A stretch of DNA of 45,539 nt from a virus. Positions 8,303 through 38,221 of the stretch are shown here, in pieces. The stretch covers positions 1-45,539 of IMG/VR virus record IMGVR_UViG_3300046820_000915. One strand, given 5' to 3'. The translations under genes and the position numbers were made by a program. Positions within the stretch are counted from its first letter, which is position 1. The number at the start of each line of letters is the position of its first letter. The notes beneath the pieces are model-generated. The model did not search any database. It saw nothing but the letters and a program-made list of their open reading frames with translations, and had not been told where the DNA came from.

Positions 8303-9505
8303 TTAAATGGTTATTTTTATACCTAAAGCTAAAAATTCATTAACGTTTTTACTGATTTGTTTGTCTGTCTTAGCGACAGCAATAAGATTACCCATATCGT
8401 CATACAAACCAACTTCACTAATTCTAGGGATATCACCCACATCAAAACTAGGGTTAGTTGTTGAACCGAATTCACCTCTATCAGCAATACATGTGATACT
8501 TTGGTAAACGTTTGTTGAAACGCTATTAAAGCTAACAGTTGTTGCAGTTGAGGCCGATGGTGTAAAGTTATTTACAATCGTTGGGTCGGTAATCACTACA
8601 AACCCCTTATCTAAATAAGCCATACCAACCAATGTATCGGCAGTAACACCTAAATTAGAGTTTGTTTGGAAATTGTATGTTTGTTTTTGATTTAATGAGA
8701 ATGGTTTATCAGTATTATAACCAGTAGCCCAGCTCAATGATAAATCACCACCGTTTGGTGTAAGGATATCATCAGAAACCAAAGCGGAAACGTTTGAACC
8801 GAAAATATTTGTTTGTGGTGCTGTATCAGCAATCAATGTGTCTAAGGTCGTCACTTTTGATGAACCGCCTTGATAAGTAGAATAGATAGTATACGTACCA
8901 GCAGATGTTGGTAATGAAATCCTAACTGTTTTACCATCAATACACTCACCGTAGCTAGTATTTTGTAAAGCAATCACTAATATTTTACTAGTTGATAAAC
9001 CACTAAGAGCGGTATCTGAAAACCCACCATTACTATATGTAGTCCCAGTATAAATACTATCACCGTTTGAATTCAATGGTAAACCAAAAGAATAGTATAA
9101 GTTAACCAACGGGTCAGTGGTGATGTCGTCTCTATTAACAACATTTTGTTTTATGTTTGAACCACTTATCGATGTAAAACCATTTGCTAATACTTCAGAT
9201 AAAATATTAACTGATTGAGAAGCAACTGGTTTAGTTAATAAACCGCTAGTATTAACAATCAACACGCTTTTTAACCCGATAGATTGTGTTGTACTATTAC
9301 TAACAGTACTATTAGGTCCTATGTCACCACTAGTGCTAGGAACTTGGCCTGTTAACAAAGTTAAAGACGTATTGTAATTAGCATCTGAATCACCAAGACT
9401 AAAAGTTTTGATTAATGCATTATTTGTTGAAACAAGCTTTTGTCTACCAATCGGTGTCAATTTAGCTGTTAATGATAGTGTCGTTGCAGAGTTATTATAT
9501 CCCAT
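8303..9505 (-). CDS. Tail-collar-fibre-like virion protein A
   Basis: This 400-residue protein has terminal signatures of phage tail-collar fibre proteins. Near the N-terminus is KLTPIGRQKLVSTN...FSLGDSDANYN (15-44), matching the family's 'K.T..G...L......F..GD' pattern. Near the C-terminus is ISEVGLYDDMGNLIAVAKTDK (about 364-384), matching 'I.E.GlyD..GnLIAV'. The middle is Ser/Thr/Asn-rich and beta-rich. The gene is coupled to its larger paralogue by a TAATG junction and is the last gene of the virion cluster. It is probably a baseplate or fibre component taking part in receptor binding or fibre attachment. Confidence 0.78.
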   Translation of the reverse strand: MGYNNSATTLSLTAKLTPIGRQKLVSTNNALIKTFSLGDSDANYNTSLTLLTGQVPSTSGDIGPNSTVSNSTTQSIGLKSVLIVNTSGLLTKPVASQSVNILSEVLANGFTSISGSNIKQNVVNRDDITTDPLVNLYYSFGLPLNSNGDSIYTGTTYSNGGFSDTALSGLSTSKILVIALQNTSYGECIDGKTVRISLPTSAGTYTIYSTYQGGSSKVTTLDTLIADTAPQTNIFGSNVSALVSDDILTPNGGDLSLSWATGYNTDKPFSLNQKQTYNFQTNSNLGVTADTLVGMAYLDKGFVVITDPTIVNNFTPSASTATTVSFNSVSTNVYQSITCIADRGEFGSTTNPSFDVGDIPRISEVGLYDDMGNLIAVAKTDKQISKNVNEFLALGIKITI

Positions 9506-11646
9506 TAGAAATCCATTGAAAGTTCAAGCATTATTGTATTACCACCAGCCGAAGCCAAAGGTACTGGGTTAGATAATTTACCGATACAAACAAGATTTTT
9601 ATCTGTATCATAAATACCAACTTCAGTTACTTTAATATTAGGTGGGTTTGTTGACAAATCTTTACTTCTGGTAGGGTTTGTAGTTGCGTTGTATTGATTA
9701 CTATTCAAACTAATATCAAAGATTGTTTTGTATATTGTCGCACCAATATATGTCGTTAAATTCCCGTAAAAGAATTTCTCGTCACCAAATTGAAGATTTT
9801 GTGGTTGTGTATTAGCTGGTAGGTTTAGTAAATCAATAATACTAAACGTTGTCGCAGTTGAATCTTTTATTAAGTCAATAACAAACCCAGTTGTTGTTGG
9901 TACTTGAATTTCCAATAATTTAGGGTCAATCGATTCGCCAGCGATACCAGTAATTGCTGGAGATGTGAAATCATAAGTTTTCCATGCTCCTGGGTCTGGA
10001 CGGTCTGTTGGGTCTTGTACGATTTGATAAACCAATTTGAATTTATCAGCATAGAAACCATAACCATCATAACCAGATTCTAATTTACGCATATATGGTA
10101 ATAAATCAGTTTCTAACAATTTAAACGCAACGTCTTTAGCAGATGATGTGTTGTTAGTTATTTTGATGTATTTTTGACATGATAAACTAGATGTCAACCC
10201 TGTTGTAAATGTATTTTCAAGACTATAAGTTAAATACATCGTATCATTGATATCCAAAATTCCAGTAGACGTACCACCAGTAGGTGATTGCAATACAGCT
10301 GATAATTCTGGAAGTGTCCAGTTTCTATTTGATTTGTAAGATGAAGCGGCAACAATTTCATCATCATGTATTACAACAGTTTTTAATTGCGGGTAGATTC
10401 TACCAACAACTTGTGCAGTTGTAGCTGATGAGATAAGTGTAGTATCTTCGAATAATTCAATATATTCTAAATCTGTATTTGGGTGAACCATAGTTGCACC
10501 AGTGGCAATAAATGTCATACCCATAGTCGTACCACTTCCAGTTGTTCCAACTCTTCTGTGATACATTAAATCTGGTAAGAAAAGTTTCAAATATTTACCA
10601 GCAGCGGTATCAGTATAGAAAAACTCACCATATAAGTTAGAAATAGTATTGTTTGTGTAGTGAATGATTGAAATAGATTTATTTACATCATCTGGGTAAC
10701 TATTTCCTGGCCCATTACAATTGAATGATAATGTAGTTGCTGTAGTTTGACAAACGTAATCCATGTAAGGATACTTAGTACCTAAGTATCTATATGACCC
10801 GAATTTAGTGTAGTCTTCGTATAAGTTTGTTGTGGTTAAACCAGTAACCCCAGCAAGATTTTCACACCAAACATTACTCATGTTCCAAACTGGAACGTCA
10901 TGACATGTTACGTTGATATTTGAATCAAAAGATAAAGTCCCAGAATCCCAATAAGCAACTGTGCTTCCTGTTGCGATGCTTTCGTAAACTTCACCGCCTC
11001 TATAAATAAAGACTTGAGATAAAGCAGTTTGTGCTGACAAATTAGGTAGATTTCTATCTAAGTCAACGCTACCAGTGTTAACTGTTTGAACTTTATACCA
11101 AAGATTTGGCATTGCTCTAGTGTTTTCATTATCTATAACGTTACCTAGAGTGTCGTTCGCTAATTTAATCATCAACACATCACCAACAGAAATTGAAGAT
11201 GTAGAAATAGTTAGGTTTGTACCACCAGTTAATATTGAGTTAGATATGTCCGTAAAATAAGGAGTATATGTGTTACCAGTAAGTGTTGTGAATACACCAC
11301 CAGTTTGACTAAAGAACCCTCTTTCAAGTGCTTCATTATTTACAACAGCTTTTACTACGTTTAATACCGAACCATTTACTGGTTGGAATGGGTCAGCCGT
11401 ATTACCTTGTGTAATGAATGATTTGATGTTAGGTTGTCTATCAAACGGTCTAAAAACAGCACTAGTCGCTGAAAGTGTTACGTCATTAGGGTTTGTATCT
11501 ACTATAGCCTCTCTATTGTAGTTTATTTCAGAATCACCAATAGCCCAGAAGCTAAAATTTAACTTCCCTTGTGCTAATTGTTCTCTTCCTTTTTGTGTTA
11601 ACTTGATGCTAACAAACGGACTTGTGCTTTTAATTATGTAACTCAT
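9505..11646 (-). CDS. Tail-collar-fibre-like virion protein B (paralogue of A)
   Basis: A 713-residue protein sharing the frame of the 400-residue gene downstream. The N-terminus is VSIKLTQKGREQLAQGKLNF then WAIGDSEINYN; near the C-terminus is VTEVGIYDTDKNLVCIGKLS. The large central region (about 60-640) is beta-rich, rich in Thr, Asn and Tyr, and unlike the corresponding part of its paralogue. That is the expected pattern when ends are kept for assembly and the exposed middle diversifies. The stop overlaps the next ATG (TAATG), and two TATTTATAA motifs lie upstream of its start. It is likely a baseplate-associated or fibre subunit; the exact position in the virion is not known. Confidence 0.78.
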   Translation of the reverse strand: MSYIIKSTSPFVSIKLTQKGREQLAQGKLNFSFWAIGDSEINYNREAIVDTNPNDVTLSATSAVFRPFDRQPNIKSFITQGNTADPFQPVNGSVLNVVKAVVNNEALERGFFSQTGGVFTTLTGNTYTPYFTDISNSILTGGTNLTISTSSISVGDVLMIKLANDTLGNVIDNENTRAMPNLWYKVQTVNTGSVDLDRNLPNLSAQTALSQVFIYRGGEVYESIATGSTVAYWDSGTLSFDSNINVTCHDVPVWNMSNVWCENLAGVTGLTTTNLYEDYTKFGSYRYLGTKYPYMDYVCQTTATTLSFNCNGPGNSYPDDVNKSISIIHYTNNTISNLYGEFFYTDTAAGKYLKLFLPDLMYHRRVGTTGSGTTMGMTFIATGATMVHPNTDLEYIELFEDTTLISSATTAQVVGRIYPQLKTVVIHDDEIVAASSYKSNRNWTLPELSAVLQSPTGGTSTGILDINDTMYLTYSLENTFTTGLTSSLSCQKYIKITNNTSSAKDVAFKLLETDLLPYMRKLESGYDGYGFYADKFKLVYQIVQDPTDRPDPGAWKTYDFTSPAITGIAGESIDPKLLEIQVPTTTGFVIDLIKDSTATTFSIIDLLNLPANTQPQNLQFGDEKFFYGNLTTYIGATIYKTIFDISLNSNQYNATTNPTRSKDLSTNPPNIKVTEVGIYDTDKNLVCIGKLSNPVPLASAGGNTIMLELSMDF

Positions 11647-11702: not shown

Positions 11703-13133
11703 TTAGTATGAATTTATAGAATTATTTTGAATTACTACTGGTATGGTTTCGCTATATACTGTCGAATTTAGATTATCCCCACAAATTGTTGTGTAATTCT
11801 TTTCATTTTTTACCCTATAATATAATTGGGTACCTACACTACCACTGGCTGTAAATGATTGGTTATAATACGTGTTACCCACAACATAGTCTGTAGTTCC
11901 TGTATAATAGAAACTAGAAAATAAATCATTTGTACTAACTTCTAGAGTAAAGAAACCATTTAATTCTGTCGGTGGGTTGGTGATTTTCCATGTTACCAAT
12001 GGTGTGTTTGTATTCAATCCATTAACTACACTAATAATCGGATAATAAACCAATGTGATTATATCATCTACCATCAAATTACCCTCTAATATTATTCTTT
12101 TTTCATTGGTTATTGATTGGTAGTAATCAATCCCACTAGCTAATGTAGCACCGTTAACCATAACAATAATCGTATCGCTACTAATGGGTGTTACAGAAGT
12201 GTATAATTCGTATTTTGATGTTCCCGTGTTGTAGTATACAAGATTTGAACCTTGTGCGTCTGATGCACCACTAATAATTGGTGTTGTAATGTGAATATTA
12301 TCACCAACCAAGTTATTACCACCACTACTGGTATAAATAACCGTAATTATATCATCAATAGCTGTTTCACCGCTTAAAGTAACAACTTGACCGCTAAAAG
12401 TGTAATCTAAGCCTTGTGCCAACACTAAACCGTTAAGCGTCAATATAAAATCACCGACATAATTGTTTGTTATAACAATTTCTGTTAAGTTTGGTTCTGG
12501 TAAGATAACTTGTTGAACCAATTTGTTGATTGGGGCACTGTTACTGAAATTACCAACAAAAATTGGGGTATCAGCTTGTTTAATCGCAATGAAATAATAA
12601 TCTAGATTATTGTCATAGATACCATATGTTGAACCACCAATATAGGTTGATGTGTCAATTGTTTTACCTAATTTACCTAAGTAATCAGTACAAACACCAA
12701 ATTGGTAGTAACCTTTGATTATATATTCACCGTCAAGTGTTAATCCACTAGTTTCTAGAAATTGGGTTGTTGTATTGGTAGCACTAAAACTTGGATAATC
12801 AATCGAATTTGATGTGAATACTGGTGTTGAACTAAAACCACTAAAAACTGGATTGTATTTATAAACACCGAACTTAAATAATGCGTTTGTATCTACAAAC
12901 GTACTAGTATTACCTGTAAAGTTAAAATCTAATTGAATTGTTTGAGAATCGGCAGAAATAACATATGAAGTACCACTAGTTGCTCCTGTACAATCTAATT
13001 TAGATGCACCACTTACGCTAAATAAAGGGTTTTCAAATACACAAATGTCAGAACTCATATTAACATTTAAAATGTCTTTATTTCTGACAGCTGAGTTTTG
13101 ATTTTGTATGTATATTCTTTCTTGATATCTCAT
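11703..13133 (-). CDS. Beta-sandwich tail-fibre-like protein
   Basis: A 476-residue Ser/Thr/Asn-rich virion-type protein. Two diverged copies of a fibre beta-sandwich unit are visible at about 222-275 and 315-370. Each reads 'v.NG..L..G.DY......v.L.g......DiItviY': FILTLNGLVLAQGLDYTF and IIVMVNGATLASGIDYY. This unit is common in phage fibre and appendage proteins. No enzyme motif is evident. Translation is coupled to the preceding small gene through TAATG, and it lies directly downstream of the SHAEG-repeat fibre. It may be a second adhesin or a connector; the assignment rests on composition, repeats and context. Confidence 0.72.
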   Translation of the reverse strand: MRYQERIYIQNQNSAVRNKDILNVNMSSDICVFENPLFSVSGASKLDCTGATSGTSYVISADSQTIQLDFNFTGNTSTFVDTNALFKFGVYKYNPVFSGFSSTPVFTSNSIDYPSFSATNTTTQFLETSGLTLDGEYIIKGYYQFGVCTDYLGKLGKTIDTSTYIGGSTYGIYDNNLDYYFIAIKQADTPIFVGNFSNSAPINKLVQQVILPEPNLTEIVITNNYVGDFILTLNGLVLAQGLDYTFSGQVVTLSGETAIDDIITVIYTSSGGNNLVGDNIHITTPIISGASDAQGSNLVYYNTGTSKYELYTSVTPISSDTIIVMVNGATLASGIDYYQSITNEKRIILEGNLMVDDIITLVYYPIISVVNGLNTNTPLVTWKITNPPTELNGFFTLEVSTNDLFSSFYYTGTTDYVVGNTYYNQSFTASGSVGTQLYYRVKNEKNYTTICGDNLNSTVYSETIPVVIQNNSINSY

Positions 13134-13375
13134 TAGTAACTAATTTCTAGTGTAACCATTGTTTTGTTATAAGTATCTTTTAACCCAAAAGATAAAGGTA
13201 TTTGTAAGGCTGCGGTTTCTTCTGCTCTAGTTAGATTTTGCAAAAAAGCCATAAAACCATTTAGGTTTATATAGTCTTCTTGTTGTATTTCACCATAAAC
13301 ACTAGAAACGTAATGTATACTATCTATTATATTTGGATAAACTTCCCCTTGTATGTTTTTTAATAATTGTGACAT
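13133..13375 (-). CDS. Small protein of unknown function between fibre genes
   Basis: An 80-residue protein that is not recognised. It begins MSQLLKNIQGEVYPNIIDSI and contains a hydrophobic helix INLNGFMAFLQNL and a C-terminal strand MVTLEISY. Only 4 bp follow the SHAEG-repeat gene, and a TAATG overlap precedes the next one, so it is certainly co-translated with fibre genes. Size and place would suit a fibre-assembly chaperone or a short adaptor, but no sequence evidence confirms it. Confidence 0.72.
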   Translation of the reverse strand: MSQLLKNIQGEVYPNIIDSIHYVSSVYGEIQQEDYINLNGFMAFLQNLTRAEETAALQIPLSFGLKDTYNKTMVTLEISY

Positions 13376-13379
13376 AATA

Positions 13380-16300
13380 TTATGGTTTTCTATATACTGT
13401 TCTACCAGTTTTTAACAAATAAAGACCACCAGATGGCATCGTTGTATCAGCATCAGCTTGAGCATCGTTATCATATGGTCCGTATGTTTTAATACTTAAC
13501 CTGTCAACATATGTTGAGTTTGAAACCAATCCAGTTATACTAGCACCCAACACTACAGTATTTGTACCACCAGCTGTTGAACCTTGACCGTGAACAAATG
13601 ATGTTTGTCCAGATGCAATAGAGTTAACACCTCCAGCATGTGATGCTGGACCAGAAGCGGTAGTTTGGCTATTTTGAGCGTGTGAGCTATCACCATATGC
13701 TTTTGTACCAGAACCTTCAGCGTGAGCTGTTGCACCAGAAGCAATTGTACCAGAACCTTCGGCATGTGAACCTTGACCACTAGCTGTTGTTTGGTCATTT
13801 TGAGCATGTGAATATGTACCAGACGCAATAGTTAATATACCTTCAGCGTGTGACCTATTACCGCTAGCTCTTGTTCCATCACCTTCGGCATGCGATACAT
13901 TACCTGTTGCGTATGTTTGAATACCTTCAGCATGTGATGACCATCCAACTGCTGTACCACCAGAAACATTAAATTGTGCTGAACCACCCTCAGCATGCGA
14001 ACTATCACCTTGAGCTAACGATTTGTATCCTTCAGCGTGTGATGTTGCACCAGATGCTATTGTTAAAGTACCTTCAGCGTGTGAATTAGTACCAATTGCT
14101 TTTGTAATTACCCCTTCAGCATGTGAATAAATACCTGTGGCTGATGTACCAGACCCTTCAGCGTGAGAAGCAACGTTAGTTGCGGTTGTGTTATAACCCT
14201 CAGCGTGAGAGTAGTTTCCTACTGCTGTGGTTCCAGAACCTTCAGCATGTGATGCTCTACCAGTTGCTATGGTTAAAATACCTTCAGCATGTGAACCACT
14301 TCCGATAGCTGTACCACCACTTATCCATAGATTTGGAACACCTAAAATAAAATCACCACCTTCGGCATGTGAACCATTTCCTCGTGCTAACGAGTAAATA
14401 CCTTCGGCATGTGAAGCGTATCCAACTGTCATTGAACCACCACCTTCAGCATGTGAATTATCACCACCAGCTATCGAACCACCACCTTCAGCGTGTGATG
14501 TTGAACCACTTGCTTTTGTACCATACCCTTCGGCATGTGATTGGAAACCGCTAGCAAGTGTTTGGGAGCCTTCGGCATGTGCTGCAAATGTTGTTGCTGT
14601 TGTAAACCACCCTTCAGCGTGTGTATACTCATCTAATGCTTTGGTTCCCGCTCCTTCAGCATGTGAGGCACTGCCGCTAGCCAATGTGTCTTGACCTTCA
14701 GCATGAGCTGCAAATGTTGTTGCTGACGTAGCATAGCCTTCAGCGTGAGTTGCTACGTCTTGGGTAATTGTTAAAACACCTTCGGCATGTGAACCATCAC
14801 CAAATGCAGTACCACCAGAGAAAAGTAAACCAGCTTTTGAATTAAAGAACCCACCTTCAGCATGTGAGTATTGACCACTAGCAAGTGTCATTAATCCTTC
14901 AGCATGTGAGGCTTGGCCAAATGCAATCGAGTTGTAACCTTCAACGTGAGCCGCAATACCATTAGCTGTCGTCCCAGAACCTTCAGAGTGTGAGTAAAGA
15001 CCTAACGCCTTTGTTATTAGCCCTTCGGCATGTGATGCTTGACCAGATGCAATAGTGTATTGACCCTCAGCGTGTGCGTAACTGCTACTAGCTAAGGTTG
15101 AAAAACCTTCAGCATGAGCTGCCTGTGTAGTTGCTGATGTAGCTCTACCCTCAGCATGAGCACCGATGTTTGTTGCGTATGTATTAATACCTTCAGCGTG
15201 TGACCCTTCACCAGATGCAGTACCACCGCTTAGTAATAAAGTAGCGGCACCACCTTCAGCATGTGAGTAATCACCTTTAGCTAATGATTTGTATCCTTGA
15301 GAATGGGAACCTTGGCCACTAGCAATCGTAAAAAACCCTTCAGCGTGCGAAGCATCACTAGAAGCTATTGTATTTTGACCTTCGGAGTGTGAACCTCTAC
15401 CACTAGCCAATGTAGTGTTACCTTCGGCTACTGAATTTGCAGCGATTGCACTACTGTTGCTACCACTCAACACAGCGGTTGCTGCGGCAGTACCAGCAGT
15501 CCAAACCATCGCAACAGTTGTTGGTGCGGTACCAGATAAAGTACTGGCAGCTCTAAATTTTACAGTACCGTCAGTTGCTCTAACCAAAACTTGTGTTAAG
15601 GCGTTGTCATTTGATGGTGCATAATTAAGATTCAAATATGGAACGTAAACTGTGTCAGCTGTATTACCTGTAATATTTTGACCACCCAAAACAGCAGAAC
15701 GAGCTCCACCAGCTATAGAGTTAAATGAATGTGCGAATGAAGTGTCTCCAGAAGCTATAGTTTTACCACCACCAGCATGTGATGCAACACCAGATGCTGT
15801 CGTTCCAGAACCTTCAGCGTGTGCAAAAATAGCACTGGCTAATGTGTTTTGACCTTGAGCATGGGTATAAAGTGTTGTTGCTGATGTACCTTGACCCTCG
15901 GCATGTGAGGCATCACCAGAAGCAAGGGTTGCTAATCCTTCAGCATGTGATGCGATACCGCTAGCTGTACCACCTTTTATTGAAGATAACGAATAACCAC
16001 CTTCAGCGTGTGAACCATAATTACTTGCAACCGATTTAAAGCCTTCAGCATGTGAATCTTGACCACTAGCTATTGTTGTATTGCCTTCAGCATGTGATTG
16101 AGCACCGCTAGCTAAAGTAAACCACCCTTCAGAGTGAGCCGCTTGAGTTGTTGCTGATGTTTGTAACCCCTCAGCATGTGATGTTGAACCAGATGCCAAT
16201 GTACCAGCACCTTCAGCGTGTGATGATATACCAGATGCTGTTGTACCAGACCCTTCGGCATGTGATTGAGAACCACTAGCCAATGTTCTATAACCTTCAG

Positions 16301-16994
16301 CATGTGAGTAATTTGTAGTTGCTGATGTGCCGTAACCTTCGGTATGTGAAACACTACCACTTGCTAGTGTTTGATAACCTTCGGCATGAGCACCAGAGTT
16401 TGTTGCTGATGTACCAAAGCCTTCAGCGTGTGAAAAATCACCACTAGCTAATGTTTTAGCACCTTCAGCATGAGCTGCAAAGGTTGTTGCCGATGTTGCA
16501 TTATATCTTGATTTAAAAGTATCGTAATAACCACCCTCGGCATGTGAACCTTCACCAATTGATATATTCTTGATACCTTCAACATGGCTTCCTCTACCTT
16601 GTGCCGTTGTTAAATAACCTTCGGCATGTGAATATAAACCACTAGCAATCGTTTCACGACCCTCAGCGTGAGCGGCCATTTCAGACGCTGTTGTTTTACT
16701 ACCCTCAGCGTGTGAATAATCACCACTAGCTGTTGTGTTATTACCTTCGGCAACAGAGTAATTTCCAGTTGAGTCCAATCCAGAGTCATTCAAAGCTTTT
16801 ATTGATTGATATCCAGTAGAACCAGAAACCCAATAAAGGTCAGCGGTTGAAACATTTAATAAATCAACTATTTGTTGTATGGTTGCTTTATATGAACTAC
16901 CATTTGGGTCTTGTGATTGGTCATTAACCAAAACAACGTGTAATAGGTCGGTTAATGCGATTGACGGTGCTATCGTTCTACTTGTTAATTTCAT
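13380..16994 (-). CDS. Giant YadA-head-like SHAEG-repeat fibre protein
   Basis: This 1204-residue protein is built almost wholly from about 60 degenerate ~14-residue repeats of the type SHAEGxxTxASGxx. This is the pattern of YadA/Hep_Hag head repeats, which form trimeric left-handed beta-rolls in bacterial adhesins. Residues 1-85 form a non-repeat cap (MKLTSRTIAPSIALTDLLHVV...), probably for attachment. A non-repeat segment (about 420-525) splits the array. Every ~120-180 residues a unit is lengthened by a loop ending in 'GGTAxGxxSHAEG'. The C-terminal ~45 residues are non-repeat, ending GLYLLKTGRTVYRKP. There is no signal peptide or outer-membrane anchor, so it is a phage fibre rather than an autotransporter. 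It is likely a host-recognition fibre. Confidence 0.85.
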   Translation of the reverse strand: MKLTSRTIAPSIALTDLLHVVLVNDQSQDPNGSSYKATIQQIVDLLNVSTADLYWVSGSTGYQSIKALNDSGLDSTGNYSVAEGNNTTASGDYSHAEGSKTTASEMAAHAEGRETIASGLYSHAEGYLTTAQGRGSHVEGIKNISIGEGSHAEGGYYDTFKSRYNATSATTFAAHAEGAKTLASGDFSHAEGFGTSATNSGAHAEGYQTLASGSVSHTEGYGTSATTNYSHAEGYRTLASGSQSHAEGSGTTASGISSHAEGAGTLASGSTSHAEGLQTSATTQAAHSEGWFTLASGAQSHAEGNTTIASGQDSHAEGFKSVASNYGSHAEGGYSLSSIKGGTASGIASHAEGLATLASGDASHAEGQGTSATTLYTHAQGQNTLASAIFAHAEGSGTTASGVASHAGGGKTIASGDTSFAHSFNSIAGGARSAVLGGQNITGNTADTVYVPYLNLNYAPSNDNALTQVLVRATDGTVKFRAASTLSGTAPTTVAMVWTAGTAAATAVLSGSNSSAIAANSVAEGNTTLASGRGSHSEGQNTIASSDASHAEGFFTIASGQGSHSQGYKSLAKGDYSHAEGGAATLLLSGGTASGEGSHAEGINTYATNIGAHAEGRATSATTQAAHAEGFSTLASSSYAHAEGQYTIASGQASHAEGLITKALGLYSHSEGSGTTANGIAAHVEGYNSIAFGQASHAEGLMTLASGQYSHAEGGFFNSKAGLLFSGGTAFGDGSHAEGVLTITQDVATHAEGYATSATTFAAHAEGQDTLASGSASHAEGAGTKALDEYTHAEGWFTTATTFAAHAEGSQTLASGFQSHAEGYGTKASGSTSHAEGGGSIAGGDNSHAEGGGSMTVGYASHAEGIYSLARGNGSHAEGGDFILGVPNLWISGGTAIGSGSHAEGILTIATGRASHAEGSGTTAVGNYSHAEGYNTTATNVASHAEGSGTSATGIYSHAEGVITKAIGTNSHAEGTLTIASGATSHAEGYKSLAQGDSSHAEGGSAQFNVSGGTAVGWSSHAEGIQTYATGNVSHAEGDGTRASGNRSHAEGILTIASGTYSHAQNDQTTASGQGSHAEGSGTIASGATAHAEGSGTKAYGDSSHAQNSQTTASGPASHAGGVNSIASGQTSFVHGQGSTAGGTNTVVLGASITGLVSNSTYVDRLSIKTYGPYDNDAQADADTTMPSGGLYLLKTGRTVYRKP
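13600..16750. repeat. Array of ~42-bp coding repeats (SHAEG units)
   Basis: Tandem degenerate ~42-bp units run on the minus strand, each including a TCACATGCxGAAGG-like core. They are interrupted at about 15430-15730 by unique sequence. Units are shortened or lengthened in places (loop units near 13965, 14335, 14830, 15235, 15980 and 16515). Codon-level divergence between units shows old, diversified duplication, with clear potential for recombination between copies. Confidence 0.85.
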
Positions 16995-17079: not shown

Positions 17080-17661
17080 CTATATATATAACGCTGAACA
17101 AAACCAAGATGAAAATCCATCCAATGTTGTACCGTAAACATTATCACCATCACAGTATATAACAACTCCGAAATCCATAAGTTGTACGAAATAATTATAC
17201 GCTGTAGTTTGGTCATATTGTGATAAAATATCAGCAATTATACATATGTTTGTTGAGTCTTGTACTGTTGAGTATTCAATAAGTCCAGACTCAATAGGGT
17301 CACAACCTATCACATCGGTTAAATTAGTTATAACGCAATCATTAAAACCATCGCAACATTGGTTTTCAACTGGAATACCTACCTCAATAAAATTAGAGTA
17401 ATCGCTAACGGATGCAACATAATTAATACAACATGTTTGATTAAGTATACACCCATTTTCATTCCATGTATTATAGTATCTCCAGAACCTAACGTTACTA
17501 CTAATAAACGAAACATCACTACAATCTGGACAACAATAAACAGAGGTGCTACCAGTGAAACCACTGGTCATAGCCTCTATCAAAAATGCACCAGGATTTG
17601 CATTCATATAGTTGAATACTTTCGTTAAATAACCTTCATACGGGTTTTTATTACATGCCAT
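17080..17661 (-). CDS. Cysteine-rich protein, short paralogue of the 1100-residue virion protein
   Basis: A 193-residue protein with many cysteines, including CCPDC (43-47), TCC and QCC. It aligns along its length with the C-terminal ~190 residues of the next upstream gene: CCPDC in both, then D/E-x-GL-I/V-E-Y/H-ST (IESGLIEYSTVQDSTNICIIAD versus NGLVEHSTLKNDTALCVLAD), then LMDFGVVIYCDGDN versus IQTYGLVISCKNGN. It is therefore a partial duplication kept as a separate gene. No enzyme motif is seen. Context is structural. The cysteine pairs could form disulfides in the mature virion or bind metal; which of these is unresolved. Confidence 0.75.
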   Translation of the reverse strand: MACNKNPYEGYLTKVFNYMNANPGAFLIEAMTSGFTGSTSVYCCPDCSDVSFISSNVRFWRYYNTWNENGCILNQTCCINYVASVSDYSNFIEVGIPVENQCCDGFNDCVITNLTDVIGCDPIESGLIEYSTVQDSTNICIIADILSQYDQTTAYNYFVQLMDFGVVIYCDGDNVYGTTLDGFSSWFCSALYI

Positions 17662-33520: not shown

Positions 33521-33544
33521 AAAAAACAATAAGGAAACCTTATT
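33521..33544 (-). terminator. Hairpin plus T-run at the end of the gp6 gene
   Basis: On the minus strand AATAAGG-ttt-CCTTATT forms a perfect 7-bp stem with a 3-base loop, followed by G and six T. It overlaps the gp6 stop codon. The stem has few G-C pairs, so termination may be partial. Confidence 0.45.
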
Positions 33545-35363
33545 ACTTAACTCTTACAACAATATCTGTTGTAGGGTATTTGATTTCAAACATGGTAGTT
33601 GGTTCACCGAAAAGTGTGTAATCTTGACCTAGGTAAATTTGTCTAGTTGTTGGGTCGGCATATATTTGTGACGTTTCGTTAAGACTATATTTACCTTGAC
33701 CTACTTTATTAAAGACTCTGACATCTAAAACGTTTAGTACCCCACCTACATTATTAATGGTTTCTAATAATGGTGACATATAAATGTTATCACCCATATC
33801 AAACTTGTTTATATCCATGTAATCTCTTACATCAGTAATCACTTGAGATATGATTTGTGATTGTGGTAATTTTTTGTCAACATATAAATCTATTTCAAAA
33901 GATAGGTTTACAATTCTACCATTTGTGACTTGAATGTAATCATTTAACATTCTATAATCAGCTAGATATGTTGAAATGTTGTCTCTAAGGGTTGTTGTCG
34001 ATTCATTGCTCAATTTTGAGCTGGAATCCAAACCTAAAACATAAATTTTAACTTTGTTTTGTTCTTCAAACACACCACATCTAAATGGTACACCAAATCT
34101 TCCAGGCATCTGTGCAATTCTAGTTTGGTAATCTTTAATCGTTACTGCTCTGTTCTGTGAAGCAAAATTATATCTAACCATGTTTCTAATCTCCTCAACA
34201 CTAGGTGTGTCTTTACCACCCAAGGCTGGGAATAGGTTGTTAACCTTTAGAGATTTTTTAACAGCTACATTTATGTTACTATCTGAACCATTAACAGACA
34301 TGTTTAAAAGACCTAATGATTTTAATGTGTTTGGCCCTAAGTTTGTGTCGGCCCCACCACCAACTCTGTATTTAACGAACATAGTTGTATTTGCGGTTGG
34401 TACAACACCTAAAGACATGTTGTTGATAAAGTTACCGATTTGATTAACCAAAGCAGTATTTGTATCGAAATCACACAAGCTACTAGTGTCTTGTGTTCCA
34501 GCACCTAGAGTTATTTTGGTAAAACCTAAATCTGTATACTCTCTAATAAACTTTTTAGTTACAGAGATATATTTTCCTGGTCTTATACCAGCATTGTCTG
34601 TTATTTTCGAGTTGTCCTCGATGAAAACTTTATCTTCAGCCAAAGCATCCACTTCAAACCATCTATTGTTTAAATTAGTGAATTCACTATAGTTTGGTTC
34701 TTTTGAGTAGTTTGTTCCTGGTAATGTTATCACTGAATCAATAGACAAAACGTTATCTTCTGGTAAAATAATTTCTAAGAATGGTTTCACGTCAGATGGC
34801 GTGATTACTCTTTTGAAGATTCTAGAATAACCGTTTACCACCATTTCTCTTTTGGTAATTGTGTAATTTATTAATGTTCCGTTTGAATTAAAATTAGGTA
34901 TGATTAATCTGTTTGGTACACCACCAACCGTAAATGGGTTACTGAAATCAATATCATCACTAGCCTCAAATATTTTACCACCACCACTAACTTGTGAACC
35001 AGCTTTAATTATTGGTGCGTATGATACGTCAAAACTATCACCTAAAACTGGAAGTGTAACACTAAAATCAACAATGGTAACACTAGGGCGTTTTCCTGGT
35101 ATTTTTAAACCAAAGGTTCTAGCCATCGATAGAACTGATTTTTTCTCTTTAGCGTAATCAATTTGTGTTTCTTGGAACATTCTATCGGTATTGGTTGATA
35201 ACATATCACCAACAGCCGCATTTAACTCTAAAAGCATCATACCCACACTCGCATCATTAAAATCATTAAAGATGTCTGGGTAATATTGTCTTACCATGTT
35301 TATTAGTTCTGCACGTATATCAGCAAAGTTTCTAGCTGTATAATTAATTCCTTGATTTGCCAT
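33543..35363 (-). CDS. Baseplate wedge protein gp6-like (baseplate J family)
   Basis: A 606-residue protein whose N-terminus matches the gp6/gpJ baseplate family: INYTARNFADIRAELINMVR, then YYPDIFNDFNDASVGMMLLELNAAVGDMLSTNTDRMFQETQID. The family pattern is 'F..I...L......P....F..as.G..liEl.A...d.l....d....E..l..A'. The C-terminal region (QSQIISQVITDVRDYMDI and MSPLLETINNVGGVLNVLDV) fits the conserved wedge domain. gp6 forms the inner dodecameric ring of the contractile-tail baseplate. It lies 6 bp after the gp25-like gene, the usual gp25-gp6 pairing of T4-like phages. Confidence 0.92.
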   Translation of the reverse strand: MANQGINYTARNFADIRAELINMVRQYYPDIFNDFNDASVGMMLLELNAAVGDMLSTNTDRMFQETQIDYAKEKKSVLSMARTFGLKIPGKRPSVTIVDFSVTLPVLGDSFDVSYAPIIKAGSQVSGGGKIFEASDDIDFSNPFTVGGVPNRLIIPNFNSNGTLINYTITKREMVVNGYSRIFKRVITPSDVKPFLEIILPEDNVLSIDSVITLPGTNYSKEPNYSEFTNLNNRWFEVDALAEDKVFIEDNSKITDNAGIRPGKYISVTKKFIREYTDLGFTKITLGAGTQDTSSLCDFDTNTALVNQIGNFINNMSLGVVPTANTTMFVKYRVGGGADTNLGPNTLKSLGLLNMSVNGSDSNINVAVKKSLKVNNLFPALGGKDTPSVEEIRNMVRYNFASQNRAVTIKDYQTRIAQMPGRFGVPFRCGVFEEQNKVKIYVLGLDSSSKLSNESTTTLRDNISTYLADYRMLNDYIQVTNGRIVNLSFEIDLYVDKKLPQSQIISQVITDVRDYMDINKFDMGDNIYMSPLLETINNVGGVLNVLDVRVFNKVGQGKYSLNETSQIYADPTTRQIYLGQDYTLFGEPTTMFEIKYPTTDIVVRVK

Positions 35364-35866: not shown

Positions 35867-38221
35867 TTAACTTGAACAACCTACGCATTCAAATTGACTT
35901 TCCGTTGGTTTCTCTACTTGTTTTTGTTTTGTCATGTCGATAGCCAAGTGTTTAGCTTTATTGTCAACCGATTCACTTCTTAAGTAGTATTGCCCTGTTT
36001 TAAGACCTAATTTCCAAGCCAAAGTATGTGATGTGGTTAATTTACCAACTGTCGGTGTACTAAAGAAGATATTAAGACTTTGTGATTGGTCAATAAATGG
36101 TGCTCTATCAGCTGACATCTCAATAAGTGCTTTTTGAGAGATTTCCCAAACAGTTTTGTATCTATCTTTCATTTCTTGGCTAATAACTGGAATGTTTTGA
36201 ACACTTCCGTTGTTTTTAATCAATTCGCTAAGAATTTCTCTGTTCCATAACCCTTCGGATTCTAAATCTCTAACCAAGTGTTTGTTTACCATTGCAAATT
36301 CACCACCAGTTACTCTACGAACGTATAGGTTCGATGTGAATGGTTCAAAGGCTTCGTTAGACCCAATAACACGAGCTGAACTAGCTGTTGGTGGGCAAGT
36401 TGTTACTAAAGAATTTCTAACACCATATTTTTTGATGTCTTTTCTTAATTGTGACCAATCATGCATCCCAGACAAATCTTCTTCTTTTCTTTTTCTAGTT
36501 GTTGTATTACCCAACTCATCTGTTTCAGTTACATCCCACATTTGCCATTGGAAAATTCCTTGTGAAATTGGTGAGCCCTCATAACCATCGTAAGTCAACC
36601 CAGTTTCTTTAGCTAAGTCGCATGACTCTCTTAATGCGTTGAAATAAATCGTTTCAAAGATGTCTTTGTTTAGTTGTCTAGCCTCATCAGATGTGAACAC
36701 TAATTTCATCATGGCAAAAACATCAGCCAAGCCTTGAATTCCGATGCCTAATGCTCTTTGTTCTAAACCGCCTTTTCTTCCTTCTTTTGTTGAGTACTCG
36801 TTTACCTCCAAAGCTATGTTTAGTGATTTAGTGATTGAGCGTGTCACTCTTCCAAGACCTTCAAAATCATATTTAGTCCCAGCAACAAATTTTTGAACAG
36901 GGATAGATGTCAAAGTGCAAATTGCAGTTGTTTCAGCATCCGTTACTTCCATAATCTCAGAACATAAATTACTAGAGTGAATCACACCCATGTTTTTTTG
37001 GTTTGATTTATTGTTCGCATGGTCTTTAAAACACATGTAAGGCATTCCACTTTCAATTTGTGCTTCAAGTATCTTAAGCCATAAGTCATGTGCTTTGATT
37101 TTGGTGCCAATACCTAGTTCTACGGCCTTATTATACTCTTCTTCGTATTCTTTACCATAAATCTCATAAAAAGGCTTTAAACCAGCCTTTTCGATGTCGT
37201 GCGGGCAAAATAGATGCCATTCACCATTTGATTCTACAGCTTTCATGAAATTGTCTGGAATCCAAAGAGCTGAAAATAAATCACGAGCTCTTAGTTCTTC
37301 AGCACCAACTTTTTTTCTAATATCCAAGACATCGAAAATATCTTTGTGCCATGGTTCTACATATACAGCACAAGAACCTGGTCTCTTACCTCTTTGGTTC
37401 CAAAATCTAAGTGTTTCGTTAACCACTTTTAGGTATTTTAGAATACCACCAGCTTTACCGTTAGAATTACCAACGTTACTTTCTTTTGAACGAATATTTG
37501 AAATCGCCAATCCGATACCTTCCGCTTTAGAAGACGAGATAGCAATTCTACCTAGAATGTTTAACAACCCTTCAGTTGAATCGTCTGGTACGATAGATAA
37601 GTTACACGAAGCAATCTGACCTATTGTTGTACCAATGTTCATTTTCAATGGTGTTGCTGGGCTTTCTTGTTGGTAACTTAAATCGTTGTACTTTTCAATA
37701 AAATCTTCTGGTGCATCAGTTGTCATAAGGGCAACTCTAACATACATTTGTTGTGGTCTTTCTAAGATTGTACCTTCAGATGATTTCAAAAGATAAATGT
37801 CTTTAAGTGAACACCACCCAAAGTAATCAAAATGAAAATCTCTTTTATAATCAATAGTTGACTCGATAAGGTCGATATTCTCTTTAATTTTGTTGTAGTA
37901 AGCGTCATTTAATAAACCAGCGTTATACATTTTCTTAGCAGCTTTCATGAAAGAATCTTCAGTTTCTTTATGTAGCTTTGTTATCGAAATATTTGCAGCT
38001 AACTTTGAGTAATCTGGGTGATTCATTGCTAGTGATTCAGCAACAACAGAAATCAAGTCATCTAACTCGTTTGTTGTCATGTCATCAGCAATACCCTGTG
38101 TTACTTTAATGAAAACCTCATCAGCGTTAACCTTTAACCCTTCTGATTGTTTTTTTATTCTAGTTAAAATTTTATTTGGATTGAAATCAATCTTACTTCC
38201 GTTTCTTTTTATTACTTGCAT
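35867..38221 (-). CDS. nrdA: Ribonucleoside-diphosphate reductase class Ia, alpha subunit
   Basis: A 784-residue large subunit that reduces NDPs to dNDPs. An N-terminal ATP cone is visible (MQVIKRNGSKIDFNPNKILT, 1-20, onward), which senses ATP/dATP in active enzymes. The catalytic loop cysteines are C206 (QIASCNLSI) and C435 (AICTLTSI), with the thiyl-radical site N418-L-C420-S-E422 (SSNLCSEI). The phosphate-binding TTCPPTASSARVIG segment is present. The C-terminal redox pair is ECVGCSS (C779, C782), which passes electrons from thioredoxin or glutaredoxin. Length agrees with E. coli NrdA (761). It lies 12 bp after nrdB and is followed by a terminator. Its place between replication and baseplate genes secures dNTP supply during infection. 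Confidence 0.97.
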   Translation of the reverse strand: MQVIKRNGSKIDFNPNKILTRIKKQSEGLKVNADEVFIKVTQGIADDMTTNELDDLISVVAESLAMNHPDYSKLAANISITKLHKETEDSFMKAAKKMYNAGLLNDAYYNKIKENIDLIESTIDYKRDFHFDYFGWCSLKDIYLLKSSEGTILERPQQMYVRVALMTTDAPEDFIEKYNDLSYQQESPATPLKMNIGTTIGQIASCNLSIVPDDSTEGLLNILGRIAISSSKAEGIGLAISNIRSKESNVGNSNGKAGGILKYLKVVNETLRFWNQRGKRPGSCAVYVEPWHKDIFDVLDIRKKVGAEELRARDLFSALWIPDNFMKAVESNGEWHLFCPHDIEKAGLKPFYEIYGKEYEEEYNKAVELGIGTKIKAHDLWLKILEAQIESGMPYMCFKDHANNKSNQKNMGVIHSSNLCSEIMEVTDAETTAICTLTSIPVQKFVAGTKYDFEGLGRVTRSITKSLNIALEVNEYSTKEGRKGGLEQRALGIGIQGLADVFAMMKLVFTSDEARQLNKDIFETIYFNALRESCDLAKETGLTYDGYEGSPISQGIFQWQMWDVTETDELGNTTTRKRKEEDLSGMHDWSQLRKDIKKYGVRNSLVTTCPPTASSARVIGSNEAFEPFTSNLYVRRVTGGEFAMVNKHLVRDLESEGLWNREILSELIKNNGSVQNIPVISQEMKDRYKTVWEISQKALIEMSADRAPFIDQSQSLNIFFSTPTVGKLTTSHTLAWKLGLKTGQYYLRSESVDNKAKHLAIDMTKQKQVEKPTESQFECVGCSS

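Follow-up and report, generated by a model that had tools for sequence, protein, structure and literature searches.

The window, by which we mean the whole 45.5 kb stretch of viral DNA analysed, encodes on its minus strand (13380-16994) a protein of 1204 amino acids with no cysteine, as given by the ORF list and translation. The gene lies between baseplate/fibre genes and a primase gene, and the window also encodes a ribonucleotide reductase, a DnaB-like helicase and SbcCD. A sequence-only reading had placed the protein in a tail-fibre cluster, which is borne out by the baseplate wedge and fibre genes nearby and by the tail spike or tail fibre annotations of its relatives. The fibre, its parts and two further genes are arranged as follows:

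13380..16994, minus strand: tail-fibre protein, 1204 aa, with two SHAEG arrays of beta-roll type (ORF; phrog_25468, E 5e-173; synteny with L002/L003)
16758..16994, minus strand: residues 1-79, N-terminal segment (MKLTxR...SSYKA), probable attachment domain (tblastn)
15684..16757, minus strand: array 1, residues 80-437, 25 layers (SVAEG start, 22 H-layers, SFAHS/SAVLG cap)
16476..16547, minus strand: insertion layer 1 (24 aa)
15951..16013, minus strand: insertion layer 2 (21 aa)
15477..15683, minus strand: residues 438-506, conserved post-cap segment GQNITGxTxDTVYVPYLN and inter-array linker (caps alike in L043, L063, L104, L119 and L039)
13545..15476, minus strand: array 2, residues 507-1150, 44 layers (AVLSG/SVAEG start, 40 H-layers, SFVHG/TVVLG cap)
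15204..15266, minus strand: insertion layer 3 (21 aa)
14793..14867, minus strand: insertion layer 4 (25 aa)
14295..14372, minus strand: insertion layer 5 (26 aa)
13938..14000, minus strand: insertion layer 6 (21 aa)
13383..13544, minus strand: residues 1151-1204, C-terminal segment SITG...TYVDRLSIKT...DDAQAD..MPSGGLY...KP (comparison with L002)
13133..13375, minus strand: 80-aa ORF immediately downstream of the fibre, which may be an assembly partner (69% identity in L002)
33543..35363, minus strand: baseplate wedge protein (phrog_219/phrog_6, tblastn)

The full parse resolved 69 layers of 14 residues, split between the two tandem arrays, with one strand of the SHAEG type beginning with Ser, Ala or Thr and a second strand of the form T-x-A-[ST]-[GTN]. 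With layer positions numbered according to Kiessling et al. and SHAEG taken as the inner strand, His occupied position 5 in 62 of the 69 layers and Glu position 7 in 58 (otherwise Gln 4, Gly 2, His 2, Leu 2 and Ser 1), with Ala between them in 58/69 and Gly at position 8 in 66/69 (Asn 2, Ser 1). Nearly all His (64/65) and most Glu (56/63) of the protein lie inside the motif. The 56 H-x-E pairs and the 54 His-to-His distances of 14 residues compared with maxima of 12 and 11, respectively, in 10,000 shuffles, excluding chance as the source of the periodicity; higher-order periodicity among layers was limited to weak peaks at lags 4 and 10. Successive H-motifs are spaced by exactly 14 residues in 54 cases. 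The initial estimate of about 60 repeats was right, but three features had been overlooked: a cap and linker (residues 438-506) interrupt the repeats, in six layers SHAEG is followed by an insertion of 7-12 residues, which in five cases ends in GGTAxG, and the hydrophobic capping layers lack the position-5 His. The fibre is also giant in a modest sense only, since at the 4.8 Å rise per layer of beta-rolls (PMC9543794) the two arrays compute to rods of about 12 and 21 nm.

Two IMG/VR contigs, L002 and L003, are syntenic with the window, with flanking proteins 59-76% identical. Their fibre has 406 residues and about a quarter of the layers yet ends as the 1204-aa protein does (residues 1146-1204 are 78% identical to L002), indicating that the shaft has changed about threefold in length while both ends were retained and that rod length varies. 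The N-terminal segment is common to phage tail proteins in L002, L065, L034, L119, L024 and L097 (tblastn). Because the internal cap resembles those of L043, L063 and L119 and the C-terminal cap that of L002, comparison of the caps suggests that an L002-like fibre gained a head-plus-cap module. A 193-aa Cys-rich ORF with several CC motifs (17080-17661) lies between the fibre genes of the window, and the syntenic L002 has no space for it, the neighbouring genes there being about 120 bp apart. Two adjoining ORFs (8303-9505 and 9505-11646) with similar starts (KLTxxGRxxL...GDS), about 75% conserved in L002, are probably paralogous structural proteins. Next to the baseplate wedge gene is one for a ribonucleotide reductase large subunit that carries an ATP cone (35867-38221).

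Hundreds of loci in phages and Firmicutes contain SHAEG repeats, with pattern scans of one viral and one genome collection returning at least 120 matches each. The 1204-aa fibre is long but ordinary in kind, as the 171 complete ORFs among the matches listed had a median of 10 layers and two others exceeded 55 (L127 with 102 and L186 with 70). The longest among the matches listed is the viral L127 ORF from 3793 (plus strand), a SHAEG protein of 2444 residues and about 102 layers. HAEG matches in the His-rich low-complexity frame of L164 and in a ZnuA-type protein among the tails were set aside as pattern artefacts. Named relatives include the tail spike of Flavobacterium phage immuto (YP_010114582.1), whose gene occupies the equivalent position, with the fibre cluster on one side and the DnaG primase gene on the other, and the tail fibre of Verrucomicrobia phage P8625. 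Both are tail proteins with SHAEG arrays but have far fewer layers and unrelated flanking domains. Repeat and predicted fold are further shared with phrog_25468 and with viral proteins named YadA-like or LbR_YadA-like in UniProt, and in the literature searched we found no published analysis of the SHAEG core.

The AlphaFold2 (AF2) monomer model of the last layers and cap, built from a 31-sequence alignment, is a left-handed parallel beta-roll with a pLDDT of 97. Its top Foldseek matches were BpaC (7o23, E 8.8e-7), BoaA and CbpF, and VIA-align placed seven trimeric-autotransporter heads at Z 18-23, among them BpaC (Z 23.0, rmsd 2.5, 156 residues aligned), CbpF (21.6), YadA (21.2), AtaA (19.5), UspA1 (18.6) and EibD (18.2), above the ice-binding roll 3ult (15.4) and phi29 gp12 (14.7). 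Sequence searches led independently to the same relatives, as phmmer with the short 406-aa fibre retrieved BpaC at E 7e-21 together with BoaA, YadA and CbpF, and the 1204-aa query reached BpaC at E 1e-11. The proposed YadA-head-like roll is therefore supported. A Hep_Hag-type profile gave a mixed result, with Pfam YadA_head scoring 30.6 bits for the L002 relative, and others also above the 25-bit cut-off, but the 1204-aa protein matching no Pfam profile at E ≤ 1. The absence of an autotransporter anchor was correctly called, since at that threshold Pfam detected neither a YadA neck nor an anchor; of the features of type Vc trimeric autotransporters (neck, stalk, YadA anchor and extended signal peptide) none was found, in contrast with L007, where Pfam recognised the ESPR, the stalk and the anchor. 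The fibre does differ from classical T4 fibres in fold, as had been claimed, but phages are already known by annotation to use the beta-roll, the viral models of BFVD including proteins named YadA-like or LbR_YadA-like in phages and giant viruses. Giant-virus proteins with a matching fold come from Pithovirus, Klosneuvirus and Fadolivirus (BFVD).

The fibre is very probably a homotrimer, by analogy with the solved YadA-family heads, which are trimers (PMC9543794, PMC2483945), and with SHAEG proteins elsewhere whose arrays are followed by Peptidase_G2 (34 of 125 sampled tails), Peptidase_S74 (2) or YadA_stalk (1) domains. Peptidase_G2, an autocleavage domain of the intramolecular-chaperone type, follows arrays of Paenibacillus/Bacillus/Clostridia type in L205, L177, L131, L194, L182 and others. 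The closest known structure in both sequence and fold is the C-terminal head of BpaC (PDB 7o23), a Burkholderia trimeric autotransporter which likewise has a polar core with hydrophobic layers solely at its C-terminal end and is the one beta-roll for which polar residues have been reported at the axis position (PMC9543794). Its core, however, consists of Thr, Asn and Ser with water, unlike the His and Glu proposed for the fibre, and it carries a neck, stalk and anchor. The YadA head (PDB 1p9h; PF05658) shares the two-strand layers of 14 residues but has Val/Ile at core positions 5 and 7 and belongs to a membrane-anchored adhesin.

Which strand would face the three-fold axis decides where His and Glu point. 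We consider it likely that SHAEG is the inner strand, with His at position 5 and Glu at position 7, so that both face the trimer core as the sequence-only reading had expected, an assignment drawn from several sequence tests (glycine, charge and caps). Position 8 is an invariant Gly in known beta-rolls (PMC9543794), and Gly followed SHAE in 1918/1930 cases (99.4%) compared with 847/1067 (79%) after TxAS; in neck-phased bacterial adhesins, selected without a Gly requirement, it stood at position 8 in 32/38 layers and at position 1 in 13/38. Charged residues (Lys, Arg, Glu, Asp) made up 14.9% and 8.6% at the TxASG strand positions, resembling the outer positions 12 and 14 of those adhesins (7/38 and 10/38) and unlike the inner positions 5 and 7 (0/38 and 1/38). 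A 14-position log-likelihood omitting His and Glu gave inner SHAEG an advantage of 2.4 nats per layer, or 2.6 for the window layers, its Gly part being aided by the construction of the reference set. Layers flanking the arrays turn hydrophobic in the SHAEG phase (SVAEG, SFAQG, SFVHG, SVVLG), and an ungapped alignment anchored at the roll end sets SHAGG-SFVHG-TIVLG over SVAIG-SVALG-TVSVG of BpaC. Structural alignments to BpaC and UspA1 agree in putting SHAEG inside. In the former, model residue 1 falls on 7o23 residue 146, which is phase 0 if the entry numbering follows SEQRES; in the latter it falls on residue 86, four before the Gly expected if S105, the occupant of position 8 (PMC9543794), is preceded by a 15-residue layer. 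The phase was read from these two structures only, numbering and gaps being ambiguous for 1p9h, CbpF and BoaA, and an unanchored ungapped BLOSUM scan against BpaC left two registers within about 10% in score.

The opposite register, in which TxASG would supply a Thr/Ser core like that of BpaC and SHAEG would expose a His/Glu ladder to solvent on every face, is unlikely but has several observations in its favour. Pfam YadA_head sets TxASG on the SVAIG columns and SHAEG on the outer columns in all four SHAEG proteins aligned, SVAIG-like strings inside the arrays are in the TxASG phase in 56 cases as opposed to 3 in the SHAEG phase, and BpaC has Thr at position 5 and Ser/Thr/Asn at position 7. 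Large insertions, published for beta-rolls between positions 14 and 1, come after SHAEG in the fibre. In an Alcanivorax MAG trimeric autotransporter (L180, ORF from 174, plus strand), SSAYG is inner and the neck places HAE on the outer strand, opposite to what we propose for phages; the Gly after HAE is not conserved there, as expected of an outer strand. Against this register, it would bring Lys, Arg, Glu or Gln into the core of many layers, leave position 8 without Gly in 16/54 window layers and place the hydrophobic caps in the wrong phase, and a near-invariant surface His/Glu across unrelated hosts would be left unexplained.

We therefore return to inner SHAEG and propose, with a probability of about 0.7, that the fibre is a trimeric roll of the YadA-head type with an inner His-Glu network and hydrophobic end layers, acting as a spacer of variable length. 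The shaft would consist of two tandem left-handed parallel beta-rolls in which three chains wind into a rod, each layer contributing two short strands. His and Glu of the inner strand would point into the inter-chain core, stacked every 4.8 Å, where a hydrogen-bond and ion-pair network between chains would replace the usual Val/Ile core, and TxASG would face solvent. Hydrophobic layers (SVAEG, SFVHG, TVVLG) would seal each array at both ends. The rod would present its C-terminal tip and lateral insertion loops to the host, with outer strands and loops free to vary and rod length setting the reach of the tip. A role in receptor binding is suggested by gene position. That the protein is instead a virion decoration or lateral whisker with no part in host recognition would fit its small C-terminal segment and the lack of a receptor-binding domain recognised by Pfam, but we hold this to be improbable given the location in the baseplate/fibre cluster and the annotation of relatives as tail spikes or tail fibres.

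A metal-stiffened rod, also put forward at the outset, found no support. Precedents for a ladder in which Glu (and His) of three chains bind divalent cations along the axis are the HxH iron sites of T4 gp37, gp12 and R-pyocin fibres, where His from three chains meet inside a phage fibre, and T4 gp5, in which three Glu hold a hydrated Mg (PMC6116203); H-x-E also alternates as HxH does. In T4 gp37 and pyocin fibres the HxH sites act as stiffeners at single points. Those fibres, however, have another fold and one octahedral site each, and the HxH motif of T4 gp37-type metal fibres is absent from the 1204 residues here. Glu is replaced by Gln in four layers of the fibre, by Gly in others and by Gln, Gly, Ser or Ala in about 200 family layers, one site every 4.8 Å would crowd charge, and His and Glu already stand near 1:1 (41:39 in array 2), so that charge could balance without metal. 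We thus regard the metal ladder as very unlikely. The recurrent replacement of Glu by Gln is easier to reconcile with hydrogen bonding than with metal binding, and a charge-balanced His-Glu hydrogen-bond/ion-pair core appears likelier on these residue patterns.

A single-chain beta-solenoid is the least probable reading: AF2 with three sequences did give a different solenoid with a pLDDT above 90 in its middle, aligned by VIA-align to right-handed helices, and a related roll is seen in the ice-binding protein 3ult (Z 15.4), but homologues carry trimer-chaperone-type domains and the deeper 31-sequence alignment returned the YadA-type fold with high confidence. The three-sequence model, whose Foldseek matches were confined to helices of tailspike/pertactin type at E > 0.1, was rejected since the 31-sequence model disagrees with it and matches the relatives found independently by sequence. 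As one repeat thus yielded two folds, both at high pLDDT, AF2 confidence alone is insufficient for repeat proteins.

A bolder extension, which we put forward tentatively and think rather unlikely, is that SHAEG arrays make up a large class of trimeric beta-rolls that has gone unrecognised, with a continuous His-Glu ladder buried in the core over as many as about 60-100 layers; proton sharing or bound cations would hold this ladder together and make rod assembly or stiffness dependent on pH or metal. Should SHAEG prove to be the inner strand, phage and bacterial proteins in their hundreds would have a charged core of near-invariant His and Glu, and the sequence rules for the beta-roll fold would need revising. 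This would also account for the Pfam profile missing or mis-phasing SHAEG proteins, and would offer a simple protein rod of adjustable length for studying buried ion pairs.
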